Shown in pieces: positions 4,907 to 56,814 of a stretch of 64,000 bases of DNA (position 1 is the stretch's first letter; each line of letters starts with the position of its first letter). The stretch is taken from assembly GCF_900111455.1 (NCBI RefSeq), contig NZ_FOIE01000006.1, forward strand, positions 248,001-312,000, given 5' to 3'. Under the pieces are notes generated by a model. That model searched no databases, was not told where the DNA came from, and saw only the letters and a program-made list of their open reading frames with translations. This stretch comes from Geodermatophilus poikilotrophus (GTDB lineage: Bacteria; Actinomycetota; Actinomycetes; Mycobacteriales; Geodermatophilaceae). The translations under genes and the position numbers were made by a program.

Positions 4907-4961
4907 GGCCTCCCTGCCCCCCACCGCTCGCAGGCTCGCGGCGGGACCCTGCAGGGAGGCC
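4907..4961 (+). repeat. Stop-linked covarying hairpin, copy A (after ilvD)
   Basis: The 5' arm GGCCTCCCTGC (4907-4917) pairs perfectly with GCAGGGAGGCC (4951-4961). The loop carries CCGCTCGCAGGCTCGCGGCGGG and then ACCCT. It begins 5 nt after the ilvD stop. The loop and 3' side recur in other copies while the stem sequence differs. A decayed second 3' half follows at about 4962-5009, including the GTTCCAGCAC string also seen after leuB. It could act as a terminator or a 3'-end stabiliser, but no U-tract follows. Confidence 0.75.
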
Positions 4962-5009
4962 GTTCCAGCACGTCACCGGCTCGCGGCGGGGTCCGGCGAG
5001 GGGCCGGGC

Positions 5010-5048
5010 GCGGGGCCGGTCCCCCCAACGGGTGAGGACCGGCCCCGC
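5010..5048 (+). terminator. Hairpin between ilvD and GGDEF-EAL gene
   Basis: The 13-nt arm GCGGGGCCGGTCC (5010-5022) is fully complementary to GGACCGGCCCCGC (5036-5048) across a 13-nt loop. There is no T-run afterwards, so rho-independent activity is uncertain. The spacing to the next gene suggests a transcription boundary. Confidence 0.5.
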
Positions 5049-5088
5049 CCACCTGTCGTCGCCCCGGCTGCCTGCCGACTGAGCAGGT

Positions 5089-7725
5089 GTGCAGAAGCTG
5101 AGGTGGTGGCTCCTCGGGAGCGCCGTGCCCGTGGGTTCCGCCTGCGCGGTGTCCGCGGGCACCTCCGGCCCGGGACACCTGGGGGACCTGGCGCTCGGCG
5201 CACTCGGCATCGCCACCGCCGTCGTCCTCTGGACCGCCGGCCGGTCCGTGCAGTCCGGGTGGCGGGGCTGGCGGCTGTTCGCCCTGGCTCCGCTGATGCC
5301 GGTGGTCGGTCTCCTCGCGGTCACCGTCGCGGCACCGGACTCCCCGTTGGAGCAGGTGGCCCTGCGCTGGCTGCCCACCGTCCCCGGCTACGTGGTCGCC
5401 GTCGTCGGCATCCTCACCCTCGTCGCCCCCTCGCGGCTGCGCGGCGGAGCCCGCCCGGCCGTCGAGCTCGCCCTCTTCCTCATTGCCTGCGCGCTGGTCG
5501 TGCAGGTGCTGGTGCTCGGTCCCGACCTCGGCTGGCTGGACCTCGACCCGAGCGGGCGCGCCGTCCTCGCCGCGGCCGTCGTCGTCACCTCGGCCACGGT
5601 GGCCGCCGCCGTCCTGCTCCTGGGCGTCATCGAGAGCCGCCGCCAGCCCATGGCGCTGGTGCTGCTGGCCGCGACGGCGCTGCTCGCCCCCGGCCGGGCG
5701 CTGGGCACCTCGGCGATGCTGACGGGGGAGGAGGCCGTCGGCGACGTCGGCCGGTTCCTCGTCGCCGGCGGGCTGGTGCTGCTCGGTGCCGCCGTCCTGC
5801 TGGACCCCGGTCCGTGCCCGGAGCCCCGCCCGCAGCCGCGCACCGGACGGTCCACCCACCTGCGCCAGCTCCTCCCGCACCTGGCCATGACGGCCGCCTG
5901 CTTCGGCGCGGCCGCGGTGTCGCTGACCGGCCACCGGATCAGCCCGGTGATCGCCGTCGGCGGCTCGCTGTGCGCCGTCCTGGCCGTGCTGCACCGCTGG
6001 CTGACCGCCCGCGAGGAGCAGCGCCTCGGCACCCGGCTGCGGCGCAGCGAGGCCTACTTCCGCTCCCTGGTCGCCACCAGCAGCGACGCGGTGCTCATCC
6101 TCGACGGCGACCTGCGGGTGACCTGGTCCTCGCCGACCCTGGGGACGACGCTCGGCGCCGCCGACGCCGTCCCGGTGGGTGCCGACCTGCTCGAGCTGGT
6201 GCACCCCGACGACGCGCTGCCGCTGGCCCGCGTCCTGCAGCCCGCGGCCGGCGCCTCCGCGCCCGCCGGTGTGCTGCGGCTGCGGCTGCGGCACGCCGAC
6301 GGCGGCTGGCGGCACCTGGAGGCCGGCTTCTCGGACCTGCGCTCGGACACCGTGGTGGGCGCCGTCGTCCTGCACTGCCGCGACACCACCGAGCGGGTCG
6401 CCCGGGAGCAGGTGCTGGAGCAGGTCGCGTTCACCGACCCGGTCACCGGGCTGCCCAACCGGGCCGGCTGCGAGCGCCTGCTCGAGCAGGCGCTCGCAGC
6501 CGGTGGGCGGGGCTGCGGCAGCCTGCTGCTCATCGAGCTCGACGGTCTGGACGAGGTGCGCGAGGACGCCGGTCGCGACGTCGTCACCGAGGTGCTGGTG
6601 GAGGTCGGCCGGCGGCTGCGGGCCACCGTGCGCAGCTCCGACGCGGTCACCCGGGTGGGAGGTGGCGCCTTCGCCGTCCTCGCCGAGGGGGCGCCGCAGG
6701 CCGTGGACCTGCTGGCCGACCGCTGCCTGTCGGTGATCGAGCAGCCGCTGGACACCGGTGCCGGCGTCTTCGACGTCAGCGCCGCCATCGGCGTGGTCGA
6801 CCTCGGTGCCGCCGGGTCGGTGCCCGACCTGCTGACCCGCGCGGAGCTCGCCGTCCGGGCGGCGAACGCCGCCGGCACCGGGACCGCGCTGCGGTACCGG
6901 CCGGCTCTGGGCAGTGCCGCCGAGCGGCGGGCCCGGCTGCGCGAGGACCTGCCCGGCGCCTGGGACCGCGGCGAGCTGTCGGTGCTGTTCCAGCCGGTGG
7001 TCTCGCTGGGCGAGCAGCGGGTGACCGGCGTCGAGGCGCTGCTGCGCTGGCAGCACCCGGAGCTCGGTGAGGTGCCCCCGGCGGAGTTCGTGCCGATCGC
7101 GGAGCGTGCCGGGGTGATCGGCGAGCTGCAGCGCTGGGCGCTGACGCACGCCGCCACGGCCGTCCTGACCCTGCCGTGCACCGGTGCGCCGCTGCGGCTG
7201 GGGGTCAACATCTCCGCCTCGCACGTCGCCGCGCGCACCCTGGTCCGCGACGTCGCCGCGGTGCTGCAGTCGACCGGGCTGGCGCCCGAGCGGCTGATCC
7301 TGGAGATCACCGAGGCGACGATCATGTCCGAGGGCGAGCACGTCGCCGTCGACATCGAGGCGCTGCGGCTCATGGGCGTCCACGTGGCGCTCGACGACTT
7401 CGGCACCGGCCGCTCCTCGCTGGCCCACCTGACCCGGTTGCCGATCGACGTGCTCAAGCTGGACCACGCCTTCGTGCTGCGGGTCGACCGCGACCCCAAG
7501 GTGCGGGCGCTGTGCGAGTCCGTCGTCTCGATCGCCGGCGCCCTGGGCCTGGACGTCGTGGCGGAGGGCGTGGAGACGCCGGCCCAGCTCGGCGCGCTGC
7601 GCGCCGCGGGCTGCGGCTTCGCGCAGGGCTTCCTGCTGGCCCGCCCGATGCGCCCGCGGGAGCTGGTCGACGTGCTCGACGACGGCGCCGGTCAGCTGTG
7701 GCCCGGTCTCGTGGCATCCCGCTGA
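5089..7725 (+). CDS. Membrane PAS-GGDEF(degenerate)-EAL protein
   Basis: An 878-residue cyclic-di-GMP protein. Residues 1-310 form several hydrophobic helices. A PAS-like domain starts near 320 (EAYFRSLVATSSDAVLILDG). The GGDEF-like domain near 450-600 carries GGGAF instead of GGDEF, so cyclase activity is probably lost. The EAL domain (about 620-870) keeps the key family residues: EALLRW, LGVNIS, EITEA, DDFGTG, LKLD, EGVETP and QGFLLARP. Phosphodiesterase activity toward c-di-GMP is therefore likely, perhaps with a GTP-sensing GGDEF remnant (inference). Its TGA overlaps the ATG of the next, similarly built gene, so the two are translationally coupled. Confidence 0.9.
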   Translation: MQKLRWWLLGSAVPVGSACAVSAGTSGPGHLGDLALGALGIATAVVLWTAGRSVQSGWRGWRLFALAPLMPVVGLLAVTVAAPDSPLEQVALRWLPTVPGYVVAVVGILTLVAPSRLRGGARPAVELALFLIACALVVQVLVLGPDLGWLDLDPSGRAVLAAAVVVTSATVAAAVLLLGVIESRRQPMALVLLAATALLAPGRALGTSAMLTGEEAVGDVGRFLVAGGLVLLGAAVLLDPGPCPEPRPQPRTGRSTHLRQLLPHLAMTAACFGAAAVSLTGHRISPVIAVGGSLCAVLAVLHRWLTAREEQRLGTRLRRSEAYFRSLVATSSDAVLILDGDLRVTWSSPTLGTTLGAADAVPVGADLLELVHPDDALPLARVLQPAAGASAPAGVLRLRLRHADGGWRHLEAGFSDLRSDTVVGAVVLHCRDTTERVAREQVLEQVAFTDPVTGLPNRAGCERLLEQALAAGGRGCGSLLLIELDGLDEVREDAGRDVVTEVLVEVGRRLRATVRSSDAVTRVGGGAFAVLAEGAPQAVDLLADRCLSVIEQPLDTGAGVFDVSAAIGVVDLGAAGSVPDLLTRAELAVRAANAAGTGTALRYRPALGSAAERRARLREDLPGAWDRGELSVLFQPVVSLGEQRVTGVEALLRWQHPELGEVPPAEFVPIAERAGVIGELQRWALTHAATAVLTLPCTGAPLRLGVNISASHVAARTLVRDVAAVLQSTGLAPERLILEITEATIMSEGEHVAVDIEALRLMGVHVALDDFGTGRSSLAHLTRLPIDVLKLDHAFVLRVDRDPKVRALCESVVSIAGALGLDVVAEGVETPAQLGALRAAGCGFAQGFLLARPMRPRELVDVLDDGAGQLWPGLVASR

Positions 7726-10415
7726 TGCCTGCCGTCCGGTCGTCCGGCCCGGTCCTCGGGCTGCTCGGGTCGCTCGCCGCCGTCACCGCGGCCCTGGAGC
7801 TGACCGGGTCCCCGCTCGCCCCCGCGCTCGTCCCCGCCTGCCTGGCCCTCGGGTCCGGCGCGACGGCGGTCGTGGCGCAGCGCGCGGCGTCCCGGCTGCC
7901 CGGCCGGTCCGCGCGGCCGTGGCGGGCGATCGCGCTGGCCACCGCGCTGCTGGCGTTCGGGCAGGTGCTGGCCACCGTGCGTTCCGGGGCGCACCTGGAG
8001 TTCGGTGGCGCGGAGGACGTGCCGATGCTGCTGGCGGTCCCGGTCGCCGTGCTCGCCGCGATGCGGCTGCTGCCCCCGCGGTCGCGCCGGTGGCCGGGCT
8101 CGCGGGCGGTGCTCGACGGCGCCATCGCCACGCTCGCCGTCGCCCTGCTCGGCCACGTGCTGCTGGCCGCCCTGCTCGCCGGTGTGCAGGGCGCGGCCGA
8201 CGGGCTGATCGCGGTCGGCTACCCGGCCGTGGGCGCGGTGCTCGTCGGGGTCGGGCTGGTCACCGTCACCGCGGTCCGCGGCGCGCGCCGGACGGCCGCG
8301 GTCTGGCTGCTGGCCGCCTCGGTCGCGATGGCCGTGGTGGCGGTGGGCGGCGCGCTCGGCCGGACGCTGGGCAGCACCGCCGCCACCGTCGTCACCGAGC
8401 AGGCCTGGCTGGCCATGCTCGCCGCGAGCGTGCTGGCCGTGCGGTCCGACCCCGGGGAGCCGGCCACCCCGGACCACGACCGGCCGATCGTCCCGCTGCG
8501 CGGCCTGGTGCTGGCCTCGGGCGTCGCGTCCGGCGTCCTGCTGCTGCTGCTCGCCGGTGCGCTGGCCGGGCGCCCGCTGGACCCGGTCGAGGCCGCTGGG
8601 GGAGCGGCGCTGGTCGCGATCACCTCGCTGCGCACCGCGCTGTGGGCGACCGACGGCTACCGGCTCACCCGGCGCCTGCTGCGCACCGAGGGCTACTTCC
8701 GCGCGCTGGTGCACAGCGGGGACGCGGTCACCCTCGTGCTCGACGGCGCCGGCCGGATCGGCTGGGCATCGGGCGCCGTGGAGGCCCAGCTGGGCTGGAC
8801 CGACCGCGAGCTCACCGGGCGGCTGCTCGCCGAGCTGCTGGACGACGGCGACCGCGACCTGGTCGCCCGGGTCGCGCAGGCGGTGCGCGGCGGCACCACG
8901 GTCGGCCTCCTGCCGGCGACCGTGCGGCTGCGGACCCGCGACGGCAGCCGGCGCGACGTCGACGTCACCGGCGCCGCCTCCGCCGGCGCCGCCCCGGCCG
9001 CCGTGTCCGGCCCCGGCGGCCGCACCGGGCTGGTCCTGCACCTGCGGGACGTCACCGACCGGAGCAGCAGCCGGCGCGAGCTGGAGCGGATGGCGTACAC
9101 CGACTTCCTCACCGGGCTGCCCAACCGCGCCCGCCTCATGGCCGCGCTCGGCGAGGTCTGGACCGCAGCGGCCCCTGGCTGCCTGCTGCTGGTGGACCTC
9201 GACGGCTTCAAGGCGGTCAACGACGTCGCCGGACACGACGCCGGCGACCGGTTGCTCTGCGAGGTGGCCGAGACGCTGCGCTCGGCGGCGCGGGAGGACG
9301 ACGTCGTGGCCCGGCTCGGCGGCGACGAGTTCGCCGTCCTCGTGCGGGCCGGCCGGGAGGAGGCCACCGTGCTCGCCGAGCGGCTGGTCGTGCTGCTCGA
9401 CCGCGACCACCGGCCGCCGGCCCCGGACGGCAGCGCCCGTGGCGGGCTGGTGCTGCCGGTGTCCGGCAGCGTCGGCGTGGCGGAGCTGCGCGCCGGCGAG
9501 GACCCCGCCGAGGCGGTCCGCCGGGCCGACCTGGCGCTGCGGGCGGCCAAGGCCGCCGGCAAGAACTGCGTCCGCACCACCGGCGAGGCGCTGGACCGGG
9601 TGGTCGACCGGCGCGCCCGGCTGGCTCGGGACCTGCCCGGAGCGATCGTCGACGGCGGCCTGTCGCTGGCGCTGCAGCCGGTCGTGGGCCTGGAGGAGGG
9701 CCGCGTCCTCGGCCTGGAGGCCCTGGTGCGCTGGCGGCACCCGGACCTGGGCGACGTCCCGCCGGAGGAGTTCGTCGGGGTGGCCGAGGACGAGGGCCTC
9801 ATCGTCCCGCTGCAGCGCTGGGTGCTCGCAGCCGCGACCGCGGCGCTCGCGCCGCTGCTGGCGGAGGGCCACGACCTGCAGCTCGGGGTGAACGTGTCCG
9901 TCCGGCACCTGCAGGCCGGCTGCCTGGCCGCCGACGTGACCCGGGCCCTCGCCGCGTCCGGCGTGCCGGCCTCCCGGCTGATGCTGGAGATCACCGAGTC
10001 GGTGCTCGTCGACGCCGAGGACCGGGTCGAGCGCGAGCTCGCCGCGCTGCGCGAGGCCGGCTGCATGATCTCGATCGACGACTTCGGCACGGGCCACTCC
10101 ACCCTCGCCCGGCTCGCCCGGCTGCCCGTCGACGTCCTCAAGATGGACCGCGACTTCGTGGCCCACATCGAGGACGACCCGCGCACCGCGGCCGTCGTCG
10201 CGAGCGTCGTGGAGCTCGGCCGCACCCTGGGCCTGGACGTCGTCGCGGAGGGCGTGGAGACCCCCGGGCAGCTGGCGGTGCTGCGCGGACTGGGCTGCCG
10301 GTTCCTCCAGGGGTACCTGCTCGGCCGCCCCGTGCCCGCCGCGGAGCTGCCTGCGGTGCTGGCCGCTCCCCGTGCGGGCGTGCTGGACGACGACCGGCTG
10401 CCGTCCCAGGTCTGA
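7725..10415 (+). CDS. Membrane PAS-GGDEF-EAL protein (both motifs intact)
   Basis: An 896-residue paralogue of the preceding gene, starting at the ATG in its TGATG overlap. About 300 residues of membrane helices are followed by a PAS-like domain (from about 320). The GGDEF domain has the exact motif GGDEF near residue 531 and REDD five residues before it, which fits the RxxD inhibitory I-site. The EAL domain has EALVRW, LGVNVS, EITES, DDFGTG, LKMD, EGVETP and QGYLLGRP. It is potentially bifunctional, making and degrading c-di-GMP with product inhibition of the cyclase. Which activity dominates cannot be read from sequence. A promoter and attenuator for ilvB follow immediately. Confidence 0.92.
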   Translation: MPAVRSSGPVLGLLGSLAAVTAALELTGSPLAPALVPACLALGSGATAVVAQRAASRLPGRSARPWRAIALATALLAFGQVLATVRSGAHLEFGGAEDVPMLLAVPVAVLAAMRLLPPRSRRWPGSRAVLDGAIATLAVALLGHVLLAALLAGVQGAADGLIAVGYPAVGAVLVGVGLVTVTAVRGARRTAAVWLLAASVAMAVVAVGGALGRTLGSTAATVVTEQAWLAMLAASVLAVRSDPGEPATPDHDRPIVPLRGLVLASGVASGVLLLLLAGALAGRPLDPVEAAGGAALVAITSLRTALWATDGYRLTRRLLRTEGYFRALVHSGDAVTLVLDGAGRIGWASGAVEAQLGWTDRELTGRLLAELLDDGDRDLVARVAQAVRGGTTVGLLPATVRLRTRDGSRRDVDVTGAASAGAAPAAVSGPGGRTGLVLHLRDVTDRSSSRRELERMAYTDFLTGLPNRARLMAALGEVWTAAAPGCLLLVDLDGFKAVNDVAGHDAGDRLLCEVAETLRSAAREDDVVARLGGDEFAVLVRAGREEATVLAERLVVLLDRDHRPPAPDGSARGGLVLPVSGSVGVAELRAGEDPAEAVRRADLALRAAKAAGKNCVRTTGEALDRVVDRRARLARDLPGAIVDGGLSLALQPVVGLEEGRVLGLEALVRWRHPDLGDVPPEEFVGVAEDEGLIVPLQRWVLAAATAALAPLLAEGHDLQLGVNVSVRHLQAGCLAADVTRALAASGVPASRLMLEITESVLVDAEDRVERELAALREAGCMISIDDFGTGHSTLARLARLPVDVLKMDRDFVAHIEDDPRTAAVVASVVELGRTLGLDVVAEGVETPGQLAVLRGLGCRFLQGYLLGRPVPAAELPAVLAAPRAGVLDDDRLPSQV

Positions 10416-10424
10416 CGACACGCG

Positions 10425-10478
10425 GTCCCACTGGATGGGACAGCGCGGTTGACGGCCCGGCTGGTCGAGGCGCACAGT
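10425..10478 (+). promoter_or_regulatory. ilvBNC promoter with upstream inverted repeat
   Basis: TTGACG (10449-10454) and CACAGT (10473-10478) are 18 nt apart, and the leader-peptide GTG begins 6 nt after the -10. Just upstream, GTCCCA-ctgga-TGGGAC (10425-10441) is an inverted repeat that could be an operator or the end of the preceding transcript. Confidence 0.55.
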
Positions 10479-10484
10479 GGCCCC

Positions 10485-10520
10485 GTGCGTCCGGCGTGCC
10501 TGCTCCTCGTAGTCGCCTAG
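10485..10520 (+). CDS. ilvB leader peptide (VRPACLLLVVA)
   Basis: An 11-codon ORF, GTG to TAG, encoding V-R-P-A-C-L-L-L-V-V-A. Three Leu codons are followed by two Val codons (GTA, GTC) directly before Ala-stop. GTA is rare in this genome style, as expected of a charging sensor. There is no Shine-Dalgarno; the promoter places the transcript start at the GTG. Two hairpins follow, the second with a T-rich tail. Attenuation of ilvBNC by a leader peptide is established in Corynebacterium; its operation here is inferred from this layout. Confidence 0.72.
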   Translation: MRPACLLLVVA

Positions 10521-10586
10521 CGCGTCGGTCCTCCCGACCGACGCGCTGACCCCTCTGTGCCCGCAGGCACGAGGGGTCTTTCGTTT
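10519..10586 (+). terminator. ilvB attenuator: stop-codon hairpin plus terminator
   Basis: Hairpin 1 pairs AGCGCGTCGGTC (10519-10530), whose first two bases are the AG of the leader stop TAG, with GACCGACGCGCT (10536-10547): 12 perfect pairs, 5-nt loop. Hairpin 2 pairs GACCCCTC-tg-TGCC (10548-10561) with GGCA-c-GAGGGGTC (10566-10578) and is followed by TTTCGTTT, a good intrinsic terminator. A ribosome held on the Leu/Val codons would cover the 5' arm of hairpin 1. How that prevents hairpin 2 is not obvious from the primary sequence. Confidence 0.7.
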
Positions 10587-10711
10587 GCGGGCCCCGACCT
10601 CCCTCCCGACGGCCGCCGGCCCGCGCCGCAGGCACCCGCGCCGCACACCGCACGGCCCCGTCCAGGGGCGCCCCGCAGAAGGCCATGACACAGGCACCGC
10701 CAGGAGACGCC

Positions 10712-12583
10712 ATGACCAGCACCACCCCGAGTGGGTCCGCCACCCGTGAGGCCGCCGAGGCACTGACCGGGGTCGAGACCACCGCCCGCTCGGTCGAGGA
10801 GGCCGCCGCCGAGCCGCTCACCGGCCTCACCGGGGCGCAGAGCCTCGTCCGGTCGCTCGAGGCGGTCGGCGTCGAGGTGGTCTTCGGCATCCCGGGCGGG
10901 GCCATCCTGCCTGCCTACGACCCGCTGTTCGACTCGCGGGTCCGCCACGTCCTGGTCCGCCACGAGCAGGGCGCCGGGCACGCCGCGCAGGGCTACGCCT
11001 CGGCCACCGGGCGGGTCGGCGTCTGCATCGCCACCTCGGGCCCGGGTGCGACCAACCTGGTCACCCCGCTGGCCGACGCCTACATGGACTCGGTCCCGAT
11101 CGTGGCGATCACCGGCCAGGTCCCGACGGCGGCGATCGGCACGGACGCCTTCCAGGAGGCGGACATCCGCGGCATCACGATGCCCATCACCAAGCACAAC
11201 TTCCTGGTCACCGACGCCCGCGAGATCCCGCAGCGGATCGCCGAGGCCTTCCACCTGGCCTCGACCGGCCGCCCCGGCCCGGTGCTCGTCGACATCCCCA
11301 AGGACGTCCTGCAGGCGACGACCGAGTTCTCCTGGCCCCCGCGGCTGGACCTGCCCGGCTACAAGCCCACCACCCGCCCGCACGGCAAGCAGGTCCGTGA
11401 GGCCGCCGCGCTGATCGCCGCCGCCCGCCGTCCGGTGCTCTACGTCGGGGGCGGCGTCCTCAAGGCCCAGGCCACCGCGGAGCTGGCCGAGCTGGTCGAG
11501 CTCACCGGCGCCCCGGTGGTCACCACGCTGATGGCCCGCGGCGCGTTCCCCGACAGCCACCCGCAGAACCTGGGCATGCCGGGCATGCACGGCAACGTCA
11601 CCGCGGTGACCGCGCTGCAGAAGGCCGACCTCATCGTCGCCCTCGGCGCCCGGTTCGACGACCGGGTCACCGGTCAGCTCTCCACGTTCGCACCGAACGC
11701 GAAGGTGGTGCACGCCGACATCGACCCAGCCGAGATCGGCAAGAACCGCAAGGCCGACGTCCCGATCGTCGGCGACGCGCGGGAGACCATCGCCGAGCTC
11801 GTCCCGGCGCTGCGGGCCGAGCACGAGGCCGGCCGCACCCCCGACCTCGCCTCCTGGTGGGCGCAGCTCGACGACTGGCGGACGCGCTACCCGCTCGGCT
11901 ACGACTGGCCCGAGGACGGCTCGCTGTCCCCGCAGTACGTGATCGAGCGGCTGGGGGCGATCGCCGGACCCGACGCGGTCTACACCTCCGGCGTCGGCCA
12001 GCACCAGATGTGGGCCGCCCAGTTCATCCGGTACGAGAAGCCGGGCACCTGGCTCAACAGCGGCGGCCTCGGGACGATGGGCTACGCCGTCCCCGCGGCG
12101 ATGGGGGCCAAGTACGGCTGCCCCGACACCACCGTCTGGGCCATCGACGGCGACGGCTGCTTCCAGATGACCAACCAGGAGCTCGCCACCTGCGCCATCG
12201 AGGGCATCCCGATCAAGGTGGCCCTCATCAACAACGGCAACCTCGGCATGGTGCGGCAGTGGCAGACCCTCTTCTACGAGGGCCGCTACTCCAACACCAA
12301 GCTGCACCCGGTGGACGCCGAGGGCCGGCCCAAGCCGGTGCGCATCCCCGACTTCGTGGCCCTCGCCGAGGCGCTGGGCTGCGTCGGCCTGCGCTGCGAG
12401 TCCAAGGACGACGTCGACGCGGTGATCGAGAAGGCCATGGCGATCGACGACGCCCCGGTGGTCATCGACTTCGTCGTCGGCGCCGACGCCCAGGTGTGGC
12501 CGATGGTCGCCGCGGGCGCCAGCAACGACGACATCCTGGCCGCGCGCGGCCTGCGCCCGGTCTTCGGCGACGGACAGGTCTAG
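10712..12583 (+). CDS. ilvB: Acetolactate synthase, large (catalytic) subunit
   Basis: 623 residues. It condenses two pyruvates to acetolactate, or pyruvate with 2-oxobutyrate to acetohydroxybutyrate, using ThDP, FAD and Mg2+. [15 protein letters not shown] and the ThDP-activating Glu (about residue 85, in [13 protein letters not shown]) are present. The C-terminal ThDP/Mg motif ([11 protein letters not shown] ... [12 protein letters not shown]) is intact. A Met at 10685 is in frame, but the ATG at 10712 has AGGAG five nt upstream and is preferred. It is the first gene of ilvBNC, under leader-peptide attenuation. The stop codon's last G starts a repeat hairpin. Confidence 0.97.
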
Positions 12584-12639
12584 GACCCCCTCTCCCCCCA
12601 CCACTCGCTCCGCTCGCGGCGGGGCCCTGAGAGGGGGCC
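12583..12639 (+). repeat. Stop-linked covarying hairpin, copy B (after ilvB)
   Basis: The arm GG-A-CCCCCTCTC (12583-12594), with a bulged A, pairs with GAGAGGGGGCC (12629-12639). The loop holds a CACTCGCTCCGCTCGCGGCGGGG variant and ends in CCCT. The first base of the arm is the G of the ilvB TAG. Because ilvN lies 38 nt further on, a full terminator here would cut the operon, so partial read-through or mRNA processing is more likely. Confidence 0.7.
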
Positions 12640-12676
12640 GACCGCTGAGCACGTTGGCACCTGGAAGGAACGTTGA

Positions 12677-14320
<1,644 letters not shown>

Positions 14321-14325
14321 GGGGA

Positions 14326-14432
14326 GGACCAGCCTCCCCCGCGGAGGACCTCGTCCGCCACGCCCCCGCAAGCCCGGGGCGAGCCTCCGGACGAGGCCAT
14401 CCGGGCTCGGCGCGGGTCCCCGGAGGGTGGCC
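14326..14432 (+). repeat. Nested pair of stop-linked hairpins, copy I (after ilvC)
   Basis: Outer arms GG-A-CCAGCCTCC (14326-14337) and GGAGGGTGGCC (14422-14432) pair with one mismatch. Inside lies a second complete hairpin, GG-A-CCTCGTCCG (14346-14357) with CGGACGAGGCC (14388-14398). Both keep the bulged-A format of the family. The inner copy appears inserted into the outer loop. Confidence 0.6.
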
Positions 14433-14449
14433 GCTCCCGCACGTCACGA

Positions 14450-18574: not shown

Positions 18575-18578
18575 GAGA

Positions 18579-18715
18579 GGACCCCTCTGCCCCCCGCCGC
18601 TCGCAGGCTCGCGGCGGGACCCTGCAGAGGGGCCGTTCCAGCACCTCACCGGGCTCGCGGCGGGACCCTGCAGAGGGGCCGTTCCAGCACCCCACCGCGC
18701 TCGCGGCGGGACGGG
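18579..18715 (+). repeat. Stop-linked covarying hairpin, copy D with tandem 3' halves (after leuB)
   Basis: GG-A-CCCCTCTGC (18579-18590) pairs with GCAGAGGGGCC (18624-18634) around CCGCCGCTCGCAGG and CTCGCGGCGGGACCCT. The 3' half, GCTCGCGGCGGGACCCT plus GCAGAGGGGCC plus GTTCCAGCACC, is then repeated (second arm 18670-18680), and a third copy breaks off near 18715. It begins 4 nt after the leuB stop. Tandem 3' halves suggest growth by slippage or recombination. Confidence 0.72.
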
Positions 18716-27451: not shown

Positions 27452-27464
27452 AGCACCACCGCAC

Positions 27465-27537
27465 GGCCCCGTCGTCTAGCGGCCCAGGACGCCGCCCTCT
27501 CACGGCGGTAGCGAGGGTTCGAATCCCTTCGGGGCTA
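27465..27537 (+). tRNA. tRNA-Glu (CTC anticodon), copy 1
   Basis: 73 nt: acceptor GGCCCCG / CGGGGCT with discriminator A; D-arm GTCTAGCGGCCCAGGAC; anticodon stem CCGCC/GGCGG with loop CTCTCAC (anticodon CTC); T-arm GAGGG-TTCGAAT-CCCTT. CCA is not encoded. The sequence is identical to the copy at 27641. Confidence 0.95.
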
Positions 27538-27545
27538 CAGCGAGC

Positions 27546-27577
27546 GAGAGCCCCCGGTCACCCGACCGGGGGCTCTC
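27546..27577 (+). terminator. Terminator after tRNA-Glu copy 1
   Basis: GAGAGCCCCCGGTC (27546-27559), loop ACCC, and the perfect complement (27564-27577): 14 pairs, followed by GTCGTC. The same hairpin recurs after copy 2. Confidence 0.75.
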
Positions 27578-27640
27578 GTCGTCTCCGGGGTGCCCCCGGT
27601 GTCCGGGCCGGGTGCGGCGCGTGGCAGCATGGACGTGCAC

Positions 27641-27713
27641 GGCCCCGTCGTCTAGCGGCCCAGGACGCCGCCCTCTCACGGCGGTAGCGAGGGTTCGAAT
27701 CCCTTCGGGGCTA
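27641..27713 (+). tRNA. tRNA-Glu (CTC anticodon), copy 2
   Basis: Identical over 73 nt to copy 1 and spaced 176 nt from it, with the same downstream terminator. CAGCAT at 27625-27630 could be a -10, so this copy may have its own promoter. Confidence 0.95.
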
Positions 27714-27721
27714 CAGCGGGT

Positions 27722-27753
27722 GAGAGCCCCCGGTCACCCGACCGGGGGCTCTC
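27722..27753 (+). terminator. Terminator after tRNA-Glu copy 2
   Basis: Same 14-bp stem and ACCC loop as at 27546-27577; only the few bases between tRNA and stem differ. Part of the tandem duplication. Confidence 0.75.
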
Positions 27754-27855
27754 GTCGTGCCAGGACCCACCGGAGTGGCCTGGTCGCTGGGGCGGGTCTA
27801 GCGTCGGGGCGCCGCTCATGCACCGTGGTGACCGGCGGGAAGGCGGGGCGCACCA

Positions 27856-43924: not shown

Positions 43925-44021
43925 GGCCACCCTCCAGGGTCCCGCCGGCCCCGCCCGGAGCTCGCTGCGAGCCTGCGAGCGGTGAGGAGGACGGGGTCTC
44001 CGAGTGGGGGGAGGGTGGTCC
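43925..44021 (-). repeat. Stop-linked covarying hairpin, copy E (after the DUF3515 gene)
   Basis: Read on the minus strand: GG-A-CCACCCTCC (44021-44010) pairs with GGAGGGTGGCC (43935-43925). The loop contains ACCGCTCGCAGGCTCGC and ends GGCGGGACCCT. It begins 4 nt beyond the minus-strand stop at 44026, in the same orientation as that gene. The loop is longer than in other copies. Confidence 0.68.
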
Positions 44022-47227: not shown

Positions 47228-47238
47228 TGTGGCGTTCG

Positions 47239-47342
47239 GCCCCTGCAGGGTCCCGCCGCGAGCTCGCGGGTGGCGAGAGCAGGGCCGGCCCCGCGTCAGG
47301 GTCCCGGCCCGAGCTCGCGAGGGCTGGGGGGACGCGGGGTCC
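47239..47342 (-). repeat. Stop-linked covarying hairpin, copy F with trailing half (after rpmB)
   Basis: On the minus strand GG-A-CCCCGCGTC (47342-47331) pairs with GACGCGGGGCC (47297-47287), with CGGGACCCT just before the 3' arm. It starts 4 nt beyond the rpmB stop. A second unit follows (GGCCCTGC ... GCGAGCTCGCGGCGGGACCCTGCAGGGGCC, to 47239), again resembling a partial copy. The same stem sequence is used by the copy after sepIVA. Confidence 0.68.
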
Positions 47343-47346
47343 TTCG

Positions 47347-47538
47347 TCAGGCGCGCACGACCTTGCCCGCCCGGATGCACGAGGTGCAGGCGTTGATGCG
47401 GCGACGGTTGCCCGGGGCGACGAGCGCCCGCACGGACTGGATGTTCGGGTTCCAACGGCGCGGCGTGCGGCGGTGCGAGTGCGACACCGACATACCGAAA
47501 CCGGGCCCCTTGCCACAGACATCGCACACGGCAGCCAC
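47347..47538 (-). CDS. rpmB: Ribosomal protein bL28
   Basis: 63 residues. MAAVCDVCGKGPGFGMSVSHSHRRT and RWNPNIQ are typical L28. Two CxxC pairs (CDVC near 5-8, CTSC near 51-54) mark the zinc-binding C+ form. ATG at 47538, with GGGAGTG upstream. It is divergent from the DAK gene. Confidence 0.97.
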   Translation of the reverse strand: MAAVCDVCGKGPGFGMSVSHSHRRTPRRWNPNIQSVRALVAPGNRRRINACTSCIRAGKVVRA

Positions 47539-47700
47539 GGTGGATCACTCCCAGAGATTCGTTTCACGGACGGCGGCACGCCGACGCGCCCGCACACAGA
47601 CCAACGGAGAGTCTAGCCGTTCCCCGGCGGCGACGTCGCGGAGGGCGGCCGGAGCGCGCCCGGGCCCCGTTGCGCGCCCGGCGCCGTCGGTCCGCGTGGG

Positions 47701-47706
47701 TACCCT
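47701..47706 (+). promoter_or_regulatory. -10 hexamer TACCCT of the DAK-recG operon
   Basis: TACCCT lies 6 nt before the GTG at 47713, consistent with a leaderless transcript for DAK, recG, rsmD and coaD. Confidence 0.48.
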
Positions 47707-47712
47707 CCGGCC

Positions 47713-51521: not shown

Positions 51522-52072
51522 CGCGGCTGATCGCAGGTGTGGCCGGCGGGCGGCGGTTGACGGTGCCCCCGTCGGGGGTGCGGCCCACCCGCGACCGTGC
51601 CCGGGAGGGGTTGTTCAACAGCCTGGGCACCCTGCTGGACCTCGACGGCGCCGCGGTCCTGGACCTCTACGCCGGGTCCGGGGCGCTGGGGTTGGAGGCG
51701 CTCAGCCGCGGCGCGTCCCGGGTGGTGTTCGTCGAGAACGGCCCGCGGGTGCTGCCGGTGCTGCGGGCCAACCTCGAGGCGGTCGGCCTGCCCGGCGGGC
51801 GCATCGTGTCCGGCTCGGTGCCCTCCGTTGTCGCCGGGCCGCCGCCGGCCCGTTTCGACCTCGTCCTCGCCGATCCGCCCTACGCCACGCCGCTGCCCGA
51901 GGTCCTCGGCGTGCTGGCGGCGCTGCTCAGCGGGGAGTGGCTGGCCGAGGGCGCGGTCGTCGTGGTCGAGCGCTCCAGCCGCGAGGCGCCCTTCGAGTGG
52001 CCGACACCCCTGCGCGGACTGCGCGACCGTCGCTACGGCGAGGCCGTGCTCCGGTACGGTCGCTGTCCGTGA
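51518..52072 (+). CDS. rsmD: 16S rRNA (guanine966-N2)-methyltransferase
   Basis: 184 residues, N6/N2-MTase of the RsmD family. SAM site VLDLYAGSGALGLEALSRGA, catalytic DPPY in LVLADPPYATPL, and the N-terminal GGRRLTVPPSGVRPTRDRAREGLFN. It methylates G966 of 16S rRNA (E. coli numbering). It starts in the recG stop, and its own stop overlaps the coaD GTG. Confidence 0.95.
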   Translation: MTRLIAGVAGGRRLTVPPSGVRPTRDRAREGLFNSLGTLLDLDGAAVLDLYAGSGALGLEALSRGASRVVFVENGPRVLPVLRANLEAVGLPGGRIVSGSVPSVVAGPPPARFDLVLADPPYATPLPEVLGVLAALLSGEWLAEGAVVVVERSSREAPFEWPTPLRGLRDRRYGEAVLRYGRCP

Positions 52073-52551
52073 GGCGAGCGGTCTGCCCCGGGTCGTTCGA
52101 CCCCGTGACGAACGGCCACGTCGACGTCGTCAGCCGGGCTGCGGCCCTGTACGACGAACTGGTCGTCGCCGTCCTGGTGAACCCCGGCAAGGCCGGGCTG
52201 TTCACCGTCGACGAGCGCATCGCGCTGCTGCGCGACGCGCTCGTCGACGTGCCCAACGTGGTCGTCGACAGCTTCCAGGGCCTGCTCGTCGACTACTGCC
52301 GCAGCAACGACATCCCGGTGATCGTCAAGGGGCTGCGCGCGGTCAGCGACTTCGAGTACGAGCTGCAGATGGCGCAGATGAACCGCGAGCTGGCCGGGGT
52401 GGAGACGCTCTTCGTGCCCACGGCCCCGCAGGTCGGCCACCTGTCCTCCAGTCTGGTCAAGCAGATCGCCACCTTCGGCGGCGACGTCTCGGGGCTGGTG
52501 CCCAAGGCCGTGCACGAGCGGCTCACCGCGCACCGGGAGCAGGGCACGTGA
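52069..52551 (+). CDS. coaD: Phosphopantetheine adenylyltransferase
   Basis: 160 residues. It transfers AMP to 4'-phosphopantetheine in CoA synthesis. CPGSFDPVTNGHVDVV holds the nucleotidyltransferase (T/HxGH) site. VIVKGLRAVSDFEYELQMAQMN and HLSSSLVKQIATFGGDV carry substrate and allosteric residues. Length is typical. Fourth gene of the DAK-recG-rsmD-coaD operon, with 4-nt overlaps throughout. Confidence 0.97.
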   Translation: MRRAVCPGSFDPVTNGHVDVVSRAAALYDELVVAVLVNPGKAGLFTVDERIALLRDALVDVPNVVVDSFQGLLVDYCRSNDIPVIVKGLRAVSDFEYELQMAQMNRELAGVETLFVPTAPQVGHLSSSLVKQIATFGGDVSGLVPKAVHERLTAHREQGT

Positions 52552-52624
52552 CCGGGCTCGCGAGGTCGTGCGAGGACACCGCACCGCCGGTCGCGGCCCC
52601 GACGAGCGCCGGTGAGGAGGAGAT

Positions 52625-53314
52625 GTGACCGAGGTCGTCTACCGGCTGTACGAGACCGTCGACGAGCTCAGCAGCGTCATCGAGAACGCGCGCAGCGTGC
52701 CGATGTCCGGCGGCTCCTGCATGGTCCCCCGCGACGTCGTGCTCGACCTGCTGGACGACCTCCGCGAGAACCTGCCGGCCGAGGTGCACAAGGCCGGCGC
52801 GATCGTCGAGCAGCGCACCGAGATCCTCCAGCAGGCGCAGGCCGAGGCCGAACGGCTGACCGGCCGCACCCGCAGCGAGACCGAGCAGGTGGTCGGCGCG
52901 GCCCGGCGGCAGCGCGAGGAGATCCTCGGCACGGCCCGTCGGCAGCGCGACGACCTGCTGGCCCGCGCCCAGGCCGAGGCCGAGGACCTGCTCGCCCGCG
53001 CCGAGGAGGAGGCCGAGCAGGTCGCCGAGGAGGCCCGCCGGCAGTACGAGGCACTGATCGCCGACGCCCAGGCCCAGCAGGCCGAGATCCTGGCGGCCGC
53101 GCAGGCCGAGCACGAGCGGCTGATCAGCGAGACGGAGGTCTACCGGGGCGCGGTCGACCGCGCCGACGAGCTCGGGGCGCAGACCGCCGCGGACGTCGCC
53201 CGGATGCGCACCGAGGTCGACGAGTACGTCGACACCCGGCTCGCCGACTTCGGCGGCACCCTGGAGCGGATGCTGCGCTCGGTGGAGAAGGCACGCGCCA
53301 ACCTCCGCGATTGA
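52625..53314 (+). CDS. sepIVA: SepIVA-like DivIVA-family coiled-coil protein
   Basis: 229 residues. A short N-terminal globular part (YRLYETVDELSSVIENARSV, then VPRDVVLDLLDDLRENLP) is followed by a long Ala/Glu/Arg/Gln coiled coil (residues 70-180) with heptad-like QAEAERL and RRQREEIL units. It ends in VDEYVDTRLADFGGTLERML. This matches mycobacterial SepIVA (Rv2927c/MSMEG_2416), a septum and cell-elongation factor, in both sequence style and position beside coaD and yceD. GTG at 52625 after GAGGAGGAGAT. The copy-G hairpin begins one base after its stop. Confidence 0.88.
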   Translation: MTEVVYRLYETVDELSSVIENARSVPMSGGSCMVPRDVVLDLLDDLRENLPAEVHKAGAIVEQRTEILQQAQAEAERLTGRTRSETEQVVGAARRQREEILGTARRQRDDLLARAQAEAEDLLARAEEEAEQVAEEARRQYEALIADAQAQQAEILAAAQAEHERLISETEVYRGAVDRADELGAQTAADVARMRTEVDEYVDTRLADFGGTLERMLRSVEKARANLRD

Positions 53315-53315
53315 G

Positions 53316-53388
53316 GGACCCCGCGTCCCCCGCAGGCCCGGGACGGGGCCGTGACTCGGGGCCGTCCGGGGGGTCTCGACGCGGGGCC
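53316..53388 (+). repeat. Stop-linked covarying hairpin, copy G (after sepIVA)
   Basis: GG-A-CCCCGCGTC (53316-53327) pairs with GACGCGGGGCC (53378-53388). The stem is the same as copy F. The loop is more diverged and lacks a clean CGGGACCCT. The region up to 53465 holds no gene. Confidence 0.62.
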
Positions 53389-53465
53389 GCCCGGACCGTC
53401 ACCACGCCGGGGGCGGTGCCCTGCAGGGGCTCCTCCGGGCCGGACGGGCCGCGTCGCGCATCGGG

Positions 53466-53471
53466 TAGGCT
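53466..53471 (+). promoter_or_regulatory. -10-like TAGGCT of the yceD-rpmF operon
   Basis: TAGGCT lies 54 nt before the yceD ATG, so this transcript would have a leader of about 45 nt rather than being leaderless. The -35 side is not clear. Confidence 0.4.
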
Positions 53472-53525
53472 GGGTACCTGGTCCGACCGCCGGAGGTCCC
53501 CGCACCCCGGCCGGGCCTCCCCCCG

Positions 53526-54170
53526 ATGCCTACCGCGAGTACCGACATGCCTGCCGCACAGCCGCCCCGCCCAGGCGCCGCGTCCCCGGACGCCCGGCGT
53601 CCCGGCGCCAACCCCTGGTCCGTGGACCTGCGCGAGCTCGGCCGCCGCGCCGGCTCGATGCAGGAGCTGGAGCGCGCGCTGCCGGCGCCCGCCGACTGGC
53701 GGGTCGAGCTCATCGGCGTCCCCGAGGGGGCCGAGGTCCGGCTCCGGCTGCGGCTGGAGTCGGTGATGGAGGGCGTGCTGGTCACCGGCGAGGTCGACGT
53801 CCCCGTCACCGGTTCGTGCGCGCGCTGCCTGGAGCCGATCGAGGACACCCTCGAGCTCGACGTCCAGGAGCTGTTCGCCTACGCGGGCAGCACCACCGAG
53901 GCCACCAGCGAGGAGGACGAGGTCCGCCGCGTCGAGGGCGACCACATCGACCTCGAGCCGATGGTCCGCGACCTCGTCGTCCTGGGCCTCCCGCTCGCGC
54001 CGACCTGCACCGAGGACTGCGCCGGCCTGTGCGTCGACTGCGGGCAGCGCCTCGACGACCTGCCCGCCGACCACACGCACGAGCAGCTCGACCCGCGCTG
54101 GGCCGGGCTCGCCGGCCGTTTCGCCTCCGCACCGGGCACCCCCGGTGCGGACAACCCAGAGGAGAACTGA
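53526..54170 (+). CDS. yceD: YceD/DUF177 protein
   Basis: 214 residues. It carries the DUF177 pattern: [29 protein letters not shown] with a CxxC pair, and ECxxDCxxLCxxC as [15 protein letters not shown]. It is probably zinc-binding and linked to ribosome or rRNA metabolism because of its fixed position before rpmF. The N-terminus is Pro-rich. ATG at 53526 lacks a strong ribosome site; a Met eight codons later is an alternative. One base separates its stop from the rpmF start. Confidence 0.88.
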
Positions 54171-54171
54171 C

Positions 54172-54351
54172 GTGGCCGTCCCGAAGCGGAAGATGTCCCG
54201 CGCCAACACCCGCGCCCGGCGCTCGCAGTGGAAGGCGTCCGCGCCCACCCTGACGCCGTGCCCGAACCGCGCCTGCGGCCAGCCCAAGCCGCCGCACCAG
54301 GCCTGCCCGAACTGCGGGCAGTACGCGGGCCGTCAGGTCCTCTCGGTCTGA
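54172..54351 (+). CDS. rpmF: Ribosomal protein bL32
   Basis: 59 residues. [21 protein letters not shown] is the conserved L32 start. CPNRAC and CPNC form the zinc-binding (C+) site near residues 32-50. GTG at 54172 after GAGGAGAACTGA. Cotranscribed with yceD and probably rnc. Confidence 0.97.
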
Positions 54352-54368
54352 CCTCGGCAGGACCAGCC

Positions 54369-55181
54369 GTGGGGACGACGGCCACCGGTACCCAGCCCAC
54401 TGCGGGCGGGGCCGCCGGCCGTTCCCCGGCCGGTGTGGCGCACGCCGACCGCGCGGCCGCCTGGCTCCTCGACGCCCTGGGTGTCGAGCTGCCCGGCGGC
54501 CTGCTGGCGTTGGCGCTGACCCACCGGTCCTACGCCTACGAGCACGGCGGGCTGCCCACCAACGAGCGCCTGGAGTTCCTCGGGGACTCGGTGCTCGGCC
54601 TGGTCGTCACCGACGAGCTGTACCGGCGGCACCCCGAGCTGCCCGAGGGCCGGCTGGCCAAGCTGCGCGCCTCGGTGGTCAACATGACCTCGCTGGCCGG
54701 CGTCGCCCGCCGGCTCGGTGACGGCGGCCTGGGTCCGCACCTGCTGCTCGGCCGCGGTGAGGAGACCACCGGCGGCCGGGAGAAGGACTCGATCCTCGCC
54801 GACGCCGTCGAGGCGATCATCGGGGCCGTGCACGTCGGGCTCGGCCTGGACACCGCCGCGGCGATCGTGCACCGCCTGTTCGACCCGCTGCTCGACCAGG
54901 CCGCCACCCGCGGCGCCGGCCTGGACTGGAAGACCAGCCTGCAGGAGCTCGGCGCCCGGCTGGGGCTCGGTGCGCCGACCTACGTGGTCGAGGACACCGG
55001 CCCCGACCACGCCAAGACCTTCACCGCCGCCGTCGTCCTCGCCAGCACGGTGCACGGCCGCGGCGCCGGCCGCACCAAGAAGGCCGCCGAGCAGGAGGCC
55101 GCCGAGGCCGCCTGGCACGCCCTCTCCGACGGCGCCGGCAGCGACGGCGCGGCCGTCGCGGCCGGGTCCGGGGCGAGCTGA
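54369..55181 (+). CDS. rnc: Ribonuclease III
   Basis: 270 residues. The RNase III signature [15 protein letters not shown] lies near residues 65-80, with the second acidic site [11 protein letters not shown]. The C-terminal double-stranded-RNA-binding domain starts near 180 ([34 protein letters not shown]). It cleaves rRNA precursors and other duplex RNAs, which makes long hairpins in this genome possible substrates. GTG at 54369 with AGGA upstream. Confidence 0.97.
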
Positions 55182-55187
55182 TCCGAC

Positions 55188-56066
55188 GTGCCCGAGCTGC
55201 CCGAGGTCGAGGTGGTCCGGCGCGGCTTGGAGCGCTGGGTCGCCGGACGCTCCGTCGCCTCCGTCGAGGTCCACCACCCGCGCGCCGTCCGCCGCCACCT
55301 CGGGGGCGCCGAGCACTTCGCCGCCGCGCTGACCGGGCGCACCCTCGCCGCCGCCCACCGCCGCGGCAAGTACCTGTGGCTGCCGTTGGCCGAGGACGAC
55401 GGCACGCCGGCCGGCCAGGCGCTCGTCGCCCACCTCGGGATGAGCGGCCAGCTGCTGGTCGAGAAGCCCGCCCAGCCCGACGAGACCCACCTGCGCGCCC
55501 GCGTCACCTTCACCGACGGCGGTCGGGAACTGCGCTTCGTCGACCAGCGCACGTTCGGCGGGCTGGCGGTGGAGGACACCGGTGAGGGCGACGCCGTGCC
55601 GCCCCGGGTCGCGCACATCGCGATCGACCCGCTGGACCCGGCCTTCGACGAGGCGGAGTTCTCCACCCGGCTGCGTCGGCGGCGCACGGAGGTCAAGCGC
55701 GCGCTGCTGGACCAGACGCTGATCGGCGGCGTCGGCAACATCTACGCCGACGAGTCGCTGTGGCGCGCCCGGTTGCACGGCAGCCGCCCGACCGACCGGC
55801 TCACCCGGGCCCAGGTCGGCGCGCTGCTGGAGGGTGTGCGCGACGTCCTCCACGAGAGCCTGGCGCAGGGCGGCACCTCCTTCGACTCGCTGTACGTCGA
55901 CGTCAACGGGCAGAGCGGGTACTTCTCCCGGCACCTGGCCGTCTACGGCCAGGTGGACCGGCCGTGCCCGCGCTGCGGGACGCCGATCGTCCGCGAGTCC
56001 TTCATGAACCGCTCGAGCTACAGCTGCCCGCAGTGCCAGCCGCTCCCGAGGGCCCGCCGCTCGTGA
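55188..56066 (+). CDS. mutM: Formamidopyrimidine-DNA glycosylase
   Basis: 292 residues. [14 protein letters not shown] holds the catalytic Pro2 and Glu3. HRRGKYLW and [13 protein letters not shown] are substrate blocks. The helix-two-turn-helix ([17 protein letters not shown]) and the C-terminal zinc finger ([25 protein letters not shown]) are complete. It removes 8-oxoguanine and works alongside the pool cleaner MutT1. GTG start at 55188. Confidence 0.97.
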
Positions 56067-56142
56067 GCGGGCAGCGGCGGGAGCCCGTCAGCGGGGAGCG
56101 AGCGAGGCGCGGGGCGCCCCGCCGGAGCGAACGGGGGGAGTC

Positions 56143-56412
56143 GTGACGCGGCGCGCGGTCGCCCTGGTCTCGGGCTCGGTGCAGGGCGTCGGCTACCGCT
56201 GGTTCGTCCGCGGACGGGCCGCGGCGGCGGGACTGGCGGGGTCGGCGACGAACCTGCCCGACGGGTGCGTCGAGGTCGTGCTCGAGGGGGAGGACGCCGC
56301 GGTGGAGGCCGTCCTCGTCGAGCTGCAGGGCGCTCAGGCGCCCGGTGCGGTGACGCGGGTCGACGTCCGGGACGAGCCGGTCCAGGGGATCTCCGGGTTC
56401 ACGACGGCGTGA
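56143..56412 (+). CDS. acyP: Acylphosphatase
   Basis: 89 residues. VSGSVQGVGYRWFVRGRAAA carries the active-site Arg, and ATNLPDGCVEVVLEG the catalytic Asn. It hydrolyses carboxyl-phosphate bonds in small metabolites. GTG at 56143 with GGGGGGAG upstream. It lies between mutM and smc, a position conserved in actinobacteria. Confidence 0.93.
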   Translation: MTRRAVALVSGSVQGVGYRWFVRGRAAAAGLAGSATNLPDGCVEVVLEGEDAAVEAVLVELQGAQAPGAVTRVDVRDEPVQGISGFTTA

Positions 56413-56456
56413 CGAACGTGACACCTCCCCGACACGGGGGCGTTGGAGTGTGCCCG

Positions 56457-56485
56457 TTGACCTGCGTGTCCTGGCCTGTCACCCT
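56457..56485 (+). promoter_or_regulatory. Promoter of the 63-aa coiled-coil gene
   Basis: TTGACC (56457-56462) and CACCCT (56480-56485), spaced 17 nt, give a start near 56492 and a leader of about 70 nt. GAAAGG (56545-56550) is the likely ribosome site. Confidence 0.55.
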
Positions 56486-56561
56486 GGGAACACACGGACC
56501 GCGCCGACCGTCGTACGGGGCGCAGGTCACACCCTCACGCAGTCGAAAGGCCGTTGTTGCC

Positions 56562-56753
56562 ATGGCCAAGGCCCTGTTCGGTCACGTCGTCGCCCCCGCG
56601 GAGCTCCGCGTAGCCGAGGAGAACGCCGTCCTGCGAGCCCGGGTGCGCCGACTGGAGCAGGAACTGCAGGAGCTGCGCGCCCAGCGCGACGCCGCCATCG
56701 CCCACGAGCTGCTCAGCCTGGCCGGCGACAACGCCGAGCCCGCGCTCGCCTAG
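56562..56753 (+). CDS. Small conserved coiled-coil protein between acyP and smc
   Basis: 63 residues. MAKALFGHVVAPAELRVAEE is followed by a Leu-heptad helix (NAVLRARVRRLEQELQELRAQ) and a short tail. It looks like a dimeric coiled coil. Proteins beginning MAKALxGH are common in actinobacteria but functionally uncharacterised to my knowledge. A clear promoter and leader suggest it is well expressed. The hairpin copy H follows its stop. Confidence 0.75.
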   Translation: MAKALFGHVVAPAELRVAEENAVLRARVRRLEQELQELRAQRDAAIAHELLSLAGDNAEPALA

Positions 56754-56758
56754 TAGAG

Positions 56759-56814
56759 GGACCCCTCTGCCCCCCGCCACTCGCAGGCTCGCGACGGGAC
56801 CCTGCAGAGGGGCC
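56759..56814 (+). repeat. Stop-linked covarying hairpin, copy H (before smc)
   Basis: GG-A-CCCCTCTGC (56759-56770) pairs with GCAGAGGGGCC (56804-56814). The loop is CCGCCACTCGCAGG plus CTCGCGACGGGACCCT. It begins 5 nt after the stop of the 63-aa gene. Its stem matches the copy after leuB. Confidence 0.72.

Follow-up and report, generated by a model that had tools for sequence, protein, structure and literature searches.

Stop-linked hairpins in Geodermatophilus poikilotrophus as probable mobile palindromic repeats

Several genes of Geodermatophilus poikilotrophus are followed, directly at their stop codons, by hairpins whose stems differ from copy to copy and yet stay paired, which raises the question of whether these hairpins are RNA structures kept by selection on the transcript or repeats that move as DNA. 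The stretch examined, called the window here, comprises 64,000 nucleotides (C14:248001-312000) of a 4.83-Mb draft genome, and the gene names used for it (ilvD, leuB, sepIVA etc.) are labels taken from an earlier note on this DNA. That note had described nine hairpins at or shortly after stop codons, in the orientation of their genes, and had favored an RNA hairpin over a mobile DNA repeat. All nine hairpins were located at those sites and fold. The preference for RNA did not survive, given the presence and absence, reversal and nesting of copies at orthologous sites, and two genomes (G001 and G029) without a match. As judged from genome comparison, the hairpins are probably (at roughly 0.8) non-autonomous mobile palindromic repeats resembling the repetitive extragenic palindromes (REPs). 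Comparison points to dispersal, a high copy number, near-confinement to one family, and orthologous sites where a copy is present, absent, reversed or nested. It also points to 5′ ends that often meet a stop codon or a −10-like box almost to the nucleotide. The outer stems vary in pairs, also in place.

Copy number, anatomy and placement

Copies were searched with a covariance model, R1, trained on 6 copies of the window plus 11 of relatives (17 in all), with E≤0.01 as the threshold for copy counts and E≤0.05 for the covariation sets. Three stretches of the own genome, chosen non-randomly and amounting to 1.17 Mb (370.6 kb of C14, 400 kb of C17 and 400 kb of C7), contained 149 matches: 65 in C14 (of 69 listed), 53 in C17 (of 60, two matches printed as 0.01 being excluded) and 31 in C7. 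Extrapolated from these non-random stretches, the genome would hold about 600 copies; at least 152 matches were obtained genome-wide with the best 150 of 13730 candidates scored. The density was uneven, with only 3 of the 31 C7 copies lying within C7:1-200000. In genome G048, from another species, 400 kb gave 72 matches. The C7:1-200000 region (L215-L224), with its 3 copies in 200 kb, also had a lower GC content (73.2%) and a lower called coding density (0.77), and is possibly an acquired region that the repeat has yet to colonise.

Matches were found in 101 of 112 genomes of the Geodermatophilaceae. Since up to 48 candidates were scored per genome in this family search, and up to 18 in an order-wide one, the per-genome counts are lower bounds. 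The order-wide sample gave matches in 60 of 298 genomes, of which 58 belong to the family. The two others are family-type copies in genomes filed under other families, G160:C17 (L203) and G169:C6 (L204). The G169 match adjoins a 663-nt stretch that is 92% identical to a Geodermatophilaceae genome, and this copy is therefore likely contamination. Most sister species reached the ceiling of 48 scored candidates, compared to zero in the near-complete sister genomes G001 and G029, which showed no R1 match among 150 scored candidates. Three other family genomes were copy-poor, with 4 (G007), 2 (G017) and 5 (G075) matches. At gathering score, Rfam returned three tRNAs only for the window and no hairpin match, and no description of the repeat was seen in the open-licence literature, as searched by titles and the starts of abstracts.

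The element is 55-75 nt long, and its core is a double hairpin. A foot, RRAGG with a bulged A, leads into a variable outer stem of 8-9 bp; an asymmetric internal loop follows, with a 3′ side near ACCCT, then an inner stem and a loop near TCGCAGGCTC. The first pairs are G-C, the two stems are stacked and the loop has about 10 nt. The 5′ flank is mostly RRA followed by GG[AG]C, and the 3′ flank is GGCCG followed often by TTCCAGC and otherwise by GC-rich sequence. The earlier statements that most copies have a bulged A after GG and that none has a U-tract both agree with our observations, with the ilvD copy carrying G for A and the absence of the U-tract judged by eye. Two subtypes were distinguished by eye. 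In type A the outer stems vary, the internal loop is close to ACCCT and a tail TTCCAGCAC(G/C)TCACC is often present. In type B the internal loop is CCTC and the stem mostly CCCCGTCC, which is the commonest arm (42 of 145 usable copies). Type-B copies were repeatedly seen by eye inside the loops of type-A copies, and G058 has three consecutive copies after ilvB. An automated nesting test based on complementary 8-nt arms had a background of about 10% in random intergenic windows and missed nested copies that are visible by eye, and thus yields no nesting rate.

By context, 67 of the 149 copies were tandem-sense, 54 convergent, 17 tandem-antisense and 8 divergent, and 3 lay inside called genes. 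Gene calls were home-made and missed small genes such as the one labeled rpmB, so some of the antisense copies are really stop-linked; one of the 17 had no called neighbour. The statement that the hairpins always follow the gene's orientation holds for the nine copies it was made for, and fails for the family, where tandem-antisense and divergent copies occur. In line with the earlier note's expectation of dozens to hundreds of copies, the family has hundreds, mostly at gene 3′ ends, rarely inside called genes and with strong covariation.

Contact with the stop codon was close. The start fell within 3 nt of a sense stop in 82 of the 149 copies, and a single exact phase, with the model start at +1 after the stop (stop codon, 4 nt, GGAC), accounted for 50 of 149; the +1 peak recurs in G048. 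Stops overlapped by the element were TAA or TAG in 7 of 20 cases, compared to 80 of 693 genes overall (Fisher p 0.005), and some nested copies carry at their left end a TGA that is absent from the host loop. This excess and these TGA codons suggest that stop codons are provided or restored by the end of the element.

The second kind of site is the promoter edge. Of 36 copies from C14, C17 and G048 that were judged non-nested and whose 5′ end faces the start of a neighbouring gene, 11 lay within 30 nt of that start. All 11 abutted a −10-like TANNNT box, compared to 1 of the 25 copies farther away. The background, taken in front of every called start including those within operons, was 36 of 5290 windows. 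Two pairs among the 11 are orthologous between the own genome and G048, leaving 9 distinct sites.

Occupied, empty and altered orthologous sites

Between C14 and G048, whose best flank matches average 96% identity, 310 orthologous junctions were compared. Copies occurred in both species at 50 junctions, only in the own genome at 11, only in G048 at 15 and in neither at 234. Ten of 42 one-to-one slots held copies in opposite orientation. The arm finder failed in many copies, and readable outer arms on both sides (both ≥7) were available in 11 of the 42 slots; 9 of these differed and 2 shared the arm. Slots are strongly shared between the species, and their contents are not. Two occupied/empty pairs illustrate the sites. 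At junction 258 the gaps are 72 and 6 nt, and at junction 181 the own gene is three codons shorter, with a TGA at the edge of the element.

The ilv genes gave a similar picture across 26 congeners. An element-like hairpin was present at the ilvB-ilvN junction in 16 of them by a strict test and in 3 more by eye, and the other 7 had no hairpin, with gaps of 2-26 nt. Occupied junctions held type A, type B or nested copies, and in L007 the copy 3′ of ilvN is reversed. The ilvB-ilvN gap was also short in the genomes with no or few matches (G001, G029, G007, G017 and G075). Downstream of ilvC, 21 of 25 congeners have an inverted repeat with 10 or more perfect base pairs, whether the element is present or not, a few of these being a different hairpin. 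Since this repeat is there irrespective of the element, the element is not needed as a terminator at that place, and a terminator was rejected as the main account; the U-tract of an intrinsic (rho-independent) terminator was likewise not seen by eye.

The ilvN-ilvC spacers of several congeners contain palindromes of their own, TTTATCGCGATAAA-like in G055, G047, G062, G060 and L011 and AAAGTGGCCACTTT-like in G057, L008 and L010. They precede ilvC, for the most part in spacers that lack the element, and are possibly regulator sites.

Paired stem changes and competing explanations

The observation that the stems vary yet stay paired was borne out by the alignments. The covariation score was 0.313 for 69 C14 matches, compared to 0.108 after shuffling, and 0.293 compared to 0.116 for 60 C17 matches; sliding-partner controls gave 0.03-0.08 (0.03-0.07 for the C14 set), which supports the covariation counts. 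In the C14 set, both-side changes were counted in 177 cells and one-side changes in 16, and 99 cells were unpaired. These counts lean towards structure, because the alignments were fitted to R1 and the copies are related. For the ilvB slot, 12 of 14 orthologous copies, selected by the loop GCTCCGC, were aligned, leaving out L001 (same letters as L155) and L163 (type B). Outer-stem cells were paired in 99.2%, with 17 both-side and 3 one-side cells, and so the ilvB outer stem changes in pairs in place. Strand preference was looked for among 1160 stem pairs of 145 copies usable out of 190. Sense-strand mismatches were G-T in 13 and A-C in 22 (two-sided p 0.18), and of 8 pairs a mean of 6.4 were Watson-Crick in promoter-edge copies (n=12) and 6.6 in stop-linked ones (n=67). 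RNA selection should favour G-U; the lack of a G-U excess and the similar pairing at promoter edges argue that sense-RNA selection alone is not the cause.

These data bear on two explanations at once. A cis-acting RNA hairpin that serves termination, processing or stability, and that selection on transcript pairing maintains at 3′ ends, would fit the covariation and the in-place paired changes at ilvB, the 121 of 149 copies downstream of a sense gene (tandem-sense and convergent together) and the slots common to both species. We nevertheless regard it as unlikely, because it does not sit well with copies that are present or absent, inverted or replaced at orthologous sites, with the lack of any match in two near-complete genomes, with the separate terminator-like inverted repeat that follows ilvC whether or not the element is there, with copies between the consecutive genes ilvB, ilvN and ilvC, or with the mismatch and promoter-edge results just given. 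The other explanation leaves mobility alone and competes with the idea that the structure is selected. During replication, template switching in a quasi-palindrome would copy one arm onto the other, so that paired changes arise unselected in an otherwise inert mobile DNA. The mechanism is described in excerpts of PMC8794818, according to which template switching can create and maintain hairpins through multibase paired changes, and the resemblance extends to such changes requiring no G-U intermediate; those hairpins, as far as the excerpts go, belong to RNA genes, whereas here the process is proposed for a mobile repeat family. The large surplus of both-side over one-side changes, the missing G-U preference and the similar pairing at promoter edges are what it would produce. 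Pure arm correction should, however, erase the bulged A and the asymmetric internal loop, both of which persist, and it does not account for the 99 unpaired cells or for rare-stem copies with many single-arm changes left uncorrected. Template switching is a likely source of the paired changes, while its being the whole story, with no selection on the stem, is possible but rather doubtful.

Comparison with described repeats makes two further candidates improbable. Di Nocera et al. 2013 (PMC3733652), in the sections available, describe GTAG and CGTC REPs as short high-copy palindromes located mostly between unidirectional and convergent genes, often less than 20 bp from ORF 3′ ends, with GTAG termini that can supply a stop codon, families that include units with different stems, and CGTC REPs without a known transposase. 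Our element resembles the REPs of those sections in its high copy number, palindromic form, closeness to ORF 3′ ends, apparent supply of stops and variable stems. It also has the general REP features of over 100 palindromic copies per genome scattered between genes (149 in 1.17 Mb) and a location mainly downstream of ORFs in unidirectional or convergent pairs. By the features compared, it is REP-like and yet neither a GTAG nor a CGTC REP. Unlike the former, it has no unpaired GTAG at the 5′ foot and is a longer double hairpin with an asymmetric internal loop; unlike the latter, it has CGTC only in the type-A tail, without the 8-9-bp stem, A-T first pairs and 4-5-nt loop. The main text of PMC3733652 does not mention actinobacteri, Geodermatophilus, Blastococcus or Frankia. 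A classical REP of the GTAG superfamily mobilised by a REP-associated tyrosine transposase (RAYT) would explain the copy number, the unpaired foot, the bulged stem and the position near ORF 3′ ends, but copies and flanks lack the GTAG foot, and the Y1/RAYT profile PF01797 was found neither in the own genome nor in any of 112 family genomes, while a positive control gave 5 of 14. Barring a transposase that has diverged beyond the reach of the profile, this contradicts the account, which we consider very improbable. Likeness to E. coli TnpA_REP and to REPINs, as far as extracts of PMC8266576 and PMC3116915 describe them, lies in being miniature non-autonomous mobile DNA, and the difference lies in the missing Y1 match. 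Least credible of all is a repeat like the mycobacterial interspersed repetitive units (MIRUs), inserting at operon junctions to couple translation. MIRUs, according to an extract of PMC12548453, are mobile and insert at start codons with a coupled ORF, and they share with our element an actinobacterial host, apparent mobility and a place at gene junctions; the element does separate ilvB from ilvN, two genes that overlap or lie close together in relatives lacking it. Against a MIRU stand its hairpin form and its placement, with stop codons and −10-like boxes as docking sites. Of 54 tandem-sense copies, just 1 is found 20 nt or less from a downstream start, and convergent placement is common (54 of 149).

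How a mobile palindromic repeat of this kind might work can be outlined. An enzyme would recognise the folded single strand by its shape (bulge, internal loop and loop) and join the 5′ end beside a T-purine-A sequence. Insertion would be tolerated because a stop codon is restored or provided by the end of the element, and new copies may overwrite occupied slots, often by entering the loop of an old copy. A structural requirement, replication template switching in the hairpin, or both, would then give the paired stem changes. In E. coli, TnpA_REP needs the GTAG foot and an unpaired bulge and accepts changes in loop and upper stem, according to excerpts of PMC8266576; with recognition of bulge and foot and little dependence on upper stem and loop, as in that model, stems could vary while remaining paired. 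A transcribed copy would fold into a stable hairpin that begins some 4 nt beyond the stop codon. By analogy with reports on E. coli REPs, it could slow terminating ribosomes or 3′ exonucleases; a portion of PMC12306157 (RepRanger) cites work on ribosome stalling by REPs located no more than 15 nt from a stop. Since hundreds of copies occur without a RAYT match, another mobiliser probably exists. Reverse transcription was rejected for this part, because the own genome lacks PF00078 despite its many copies and the domain does not track copy number. A search of C14, C17, the G048 stretch and L001-L013 for an autonomous parent bearing a gene in its loop, as 5′ and 3′ halves separated by 0.26-4.5 kb, gave 0 cases, which is weak evidence, as only 46 five-prime arms fitted the strict pattern. 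Tentatively, most species of the family may carry a mobile hairpin moved by undescribed non-Y1 machinery that reads the shape of DNA or RNA and not its sequence; this hairpin would dock almost to the nucleotide at stop codons and −10 boxes while partly supplying the stop, and would have its stems rewritten in pairs by template switching, so that covariation would arise in mobile DNA.

Several observations weigh against the mobile repeat. Slots are shared with an odds ratio of about 71, which would be expected too if a hairpin were useful at those places. The comparisons are of species-level pairs only, so that single events are undated, an occupied/empty pair alone does not separate insertion from deletion, and neither a target-site duplication nor an excision product was seen. 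No mobilising enzyme was found among the only families searched, Y1/RAYT and reverse transcriptase, the latter (PF00078) being absent from the own genome and present in 48 of 108 genomes. Conservation of the inner stem is poor among the ilvB orthologues (helix 3 paired in 67.6% of cells), and two of five measures in that set do not exceed shuffles (64 and 349 of 500). When 56 rare-stem copies are compared with the nearest common stem, 51 changes are paired and 48, about half, affect a single arm; pairing is perfect in only 20 of the 56. Finally, the −10 rule was tested on the very data that had suggested it, against a background that includes operon-internal genes, and a further 400-kb sample held zero eligible copies, so the rule has no independent repeat.

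Copies in the window and what they mean

At E≤0.01 the window contains 11 R1 matches, two of which, 47241..47284 (−) and 810..866 (−), were missing from the earlier note. Type-A copies follow ilvD (4903..4962, +, 81.6 bits), where the copy is followed by the tail TTCCAGCACGTCACCGG, and overlap the stops of ilvB (TAG; 12580..12640, +, 76.2 bits), with the loop variant GCTCCGC, and ilvN (TAA; 13203..13261, +, 63.8 bits). The ilvB copy is the one whose orthologues in relatives carry different, paired stems. Downstream of ilvC lies an outer degenerate copy (14326..14432, +) with a type-B-like copy in its loop at 14343-14399 (inner score 43.8 bits), and this composite is followed by the separate terminator-like inverted repeat. 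The ilvC, DUF3515 and sepIVA copies are all nested or degenerate. The DUF3515 gene is followed by a composite (43925..44021, −) of an outer type-A copy and a type-B copy in its loop (43946-44002, inner 44.2 bits), and sepIVA by a degenerate or rearranged copy (53313..53388, +; match 53313-53364, 29.9 bits). Type-A copies are also found 3′ of the gene that the earlier note labeled rpmB (47286..47345, −, 77.1 bits), with the partial second copy at 47241..47284 (−, 35.1 bits) directly downstream, and 3′ of a 63-aa gene (56756..56815, +, 77.6 bits). The copy at 810..866 (−, 31.6 bits) has no stop link; its 5′ end adjoins a TANNNT (−10-like) box 14 nt from a called start at 881.

The top score in the window belongs to the type-A copy 3′ of leuB (18576..18635, +, 83.8 bits). 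It is followed by a 46-nt repeat of its 3′ half (18652..18697, +, family D2, 98% identity), which is either the remnant of an earlier copy or a tandem duplication. The region 18606-18697 is a tandem repeat of 46 nt, and comparable 3′-half remnants stand behind the copies at C17:263080, 165749 and 334275, as if the 5′ half of old copies had been overwritten by new ones. Two other repeats were observed in the window. A 122-nt duplication (98%) at 27461-27758 contains two tRNA genes (27465-27537 and 27641-27713), and at 5089-10415 two neighbouring large genes have repeated segments about 2.7 kb apart with 73-76% identity, which suggests tandem paralogues.

For the family, these results would place a REP-class repeat, in hundreds of copies per genome, in high-GC actinobacteria. 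Significant stem covariation together with stop linkage is the usual evidence for a functional RNA, and its probable origin here warns that both can come from mobile DNA. The copy-free sisters G001 and G029 provide a natural experiment that allows a search for the mobiliser. Promoters may be edited by the repeat as well, as its contact with −10-like boxes suggests. If the sampled stretches are typical, hundreds of genes per genome would carry a strong hairpin just after the stop, and effects on termination, ribosome release and mRNA stability become testable.

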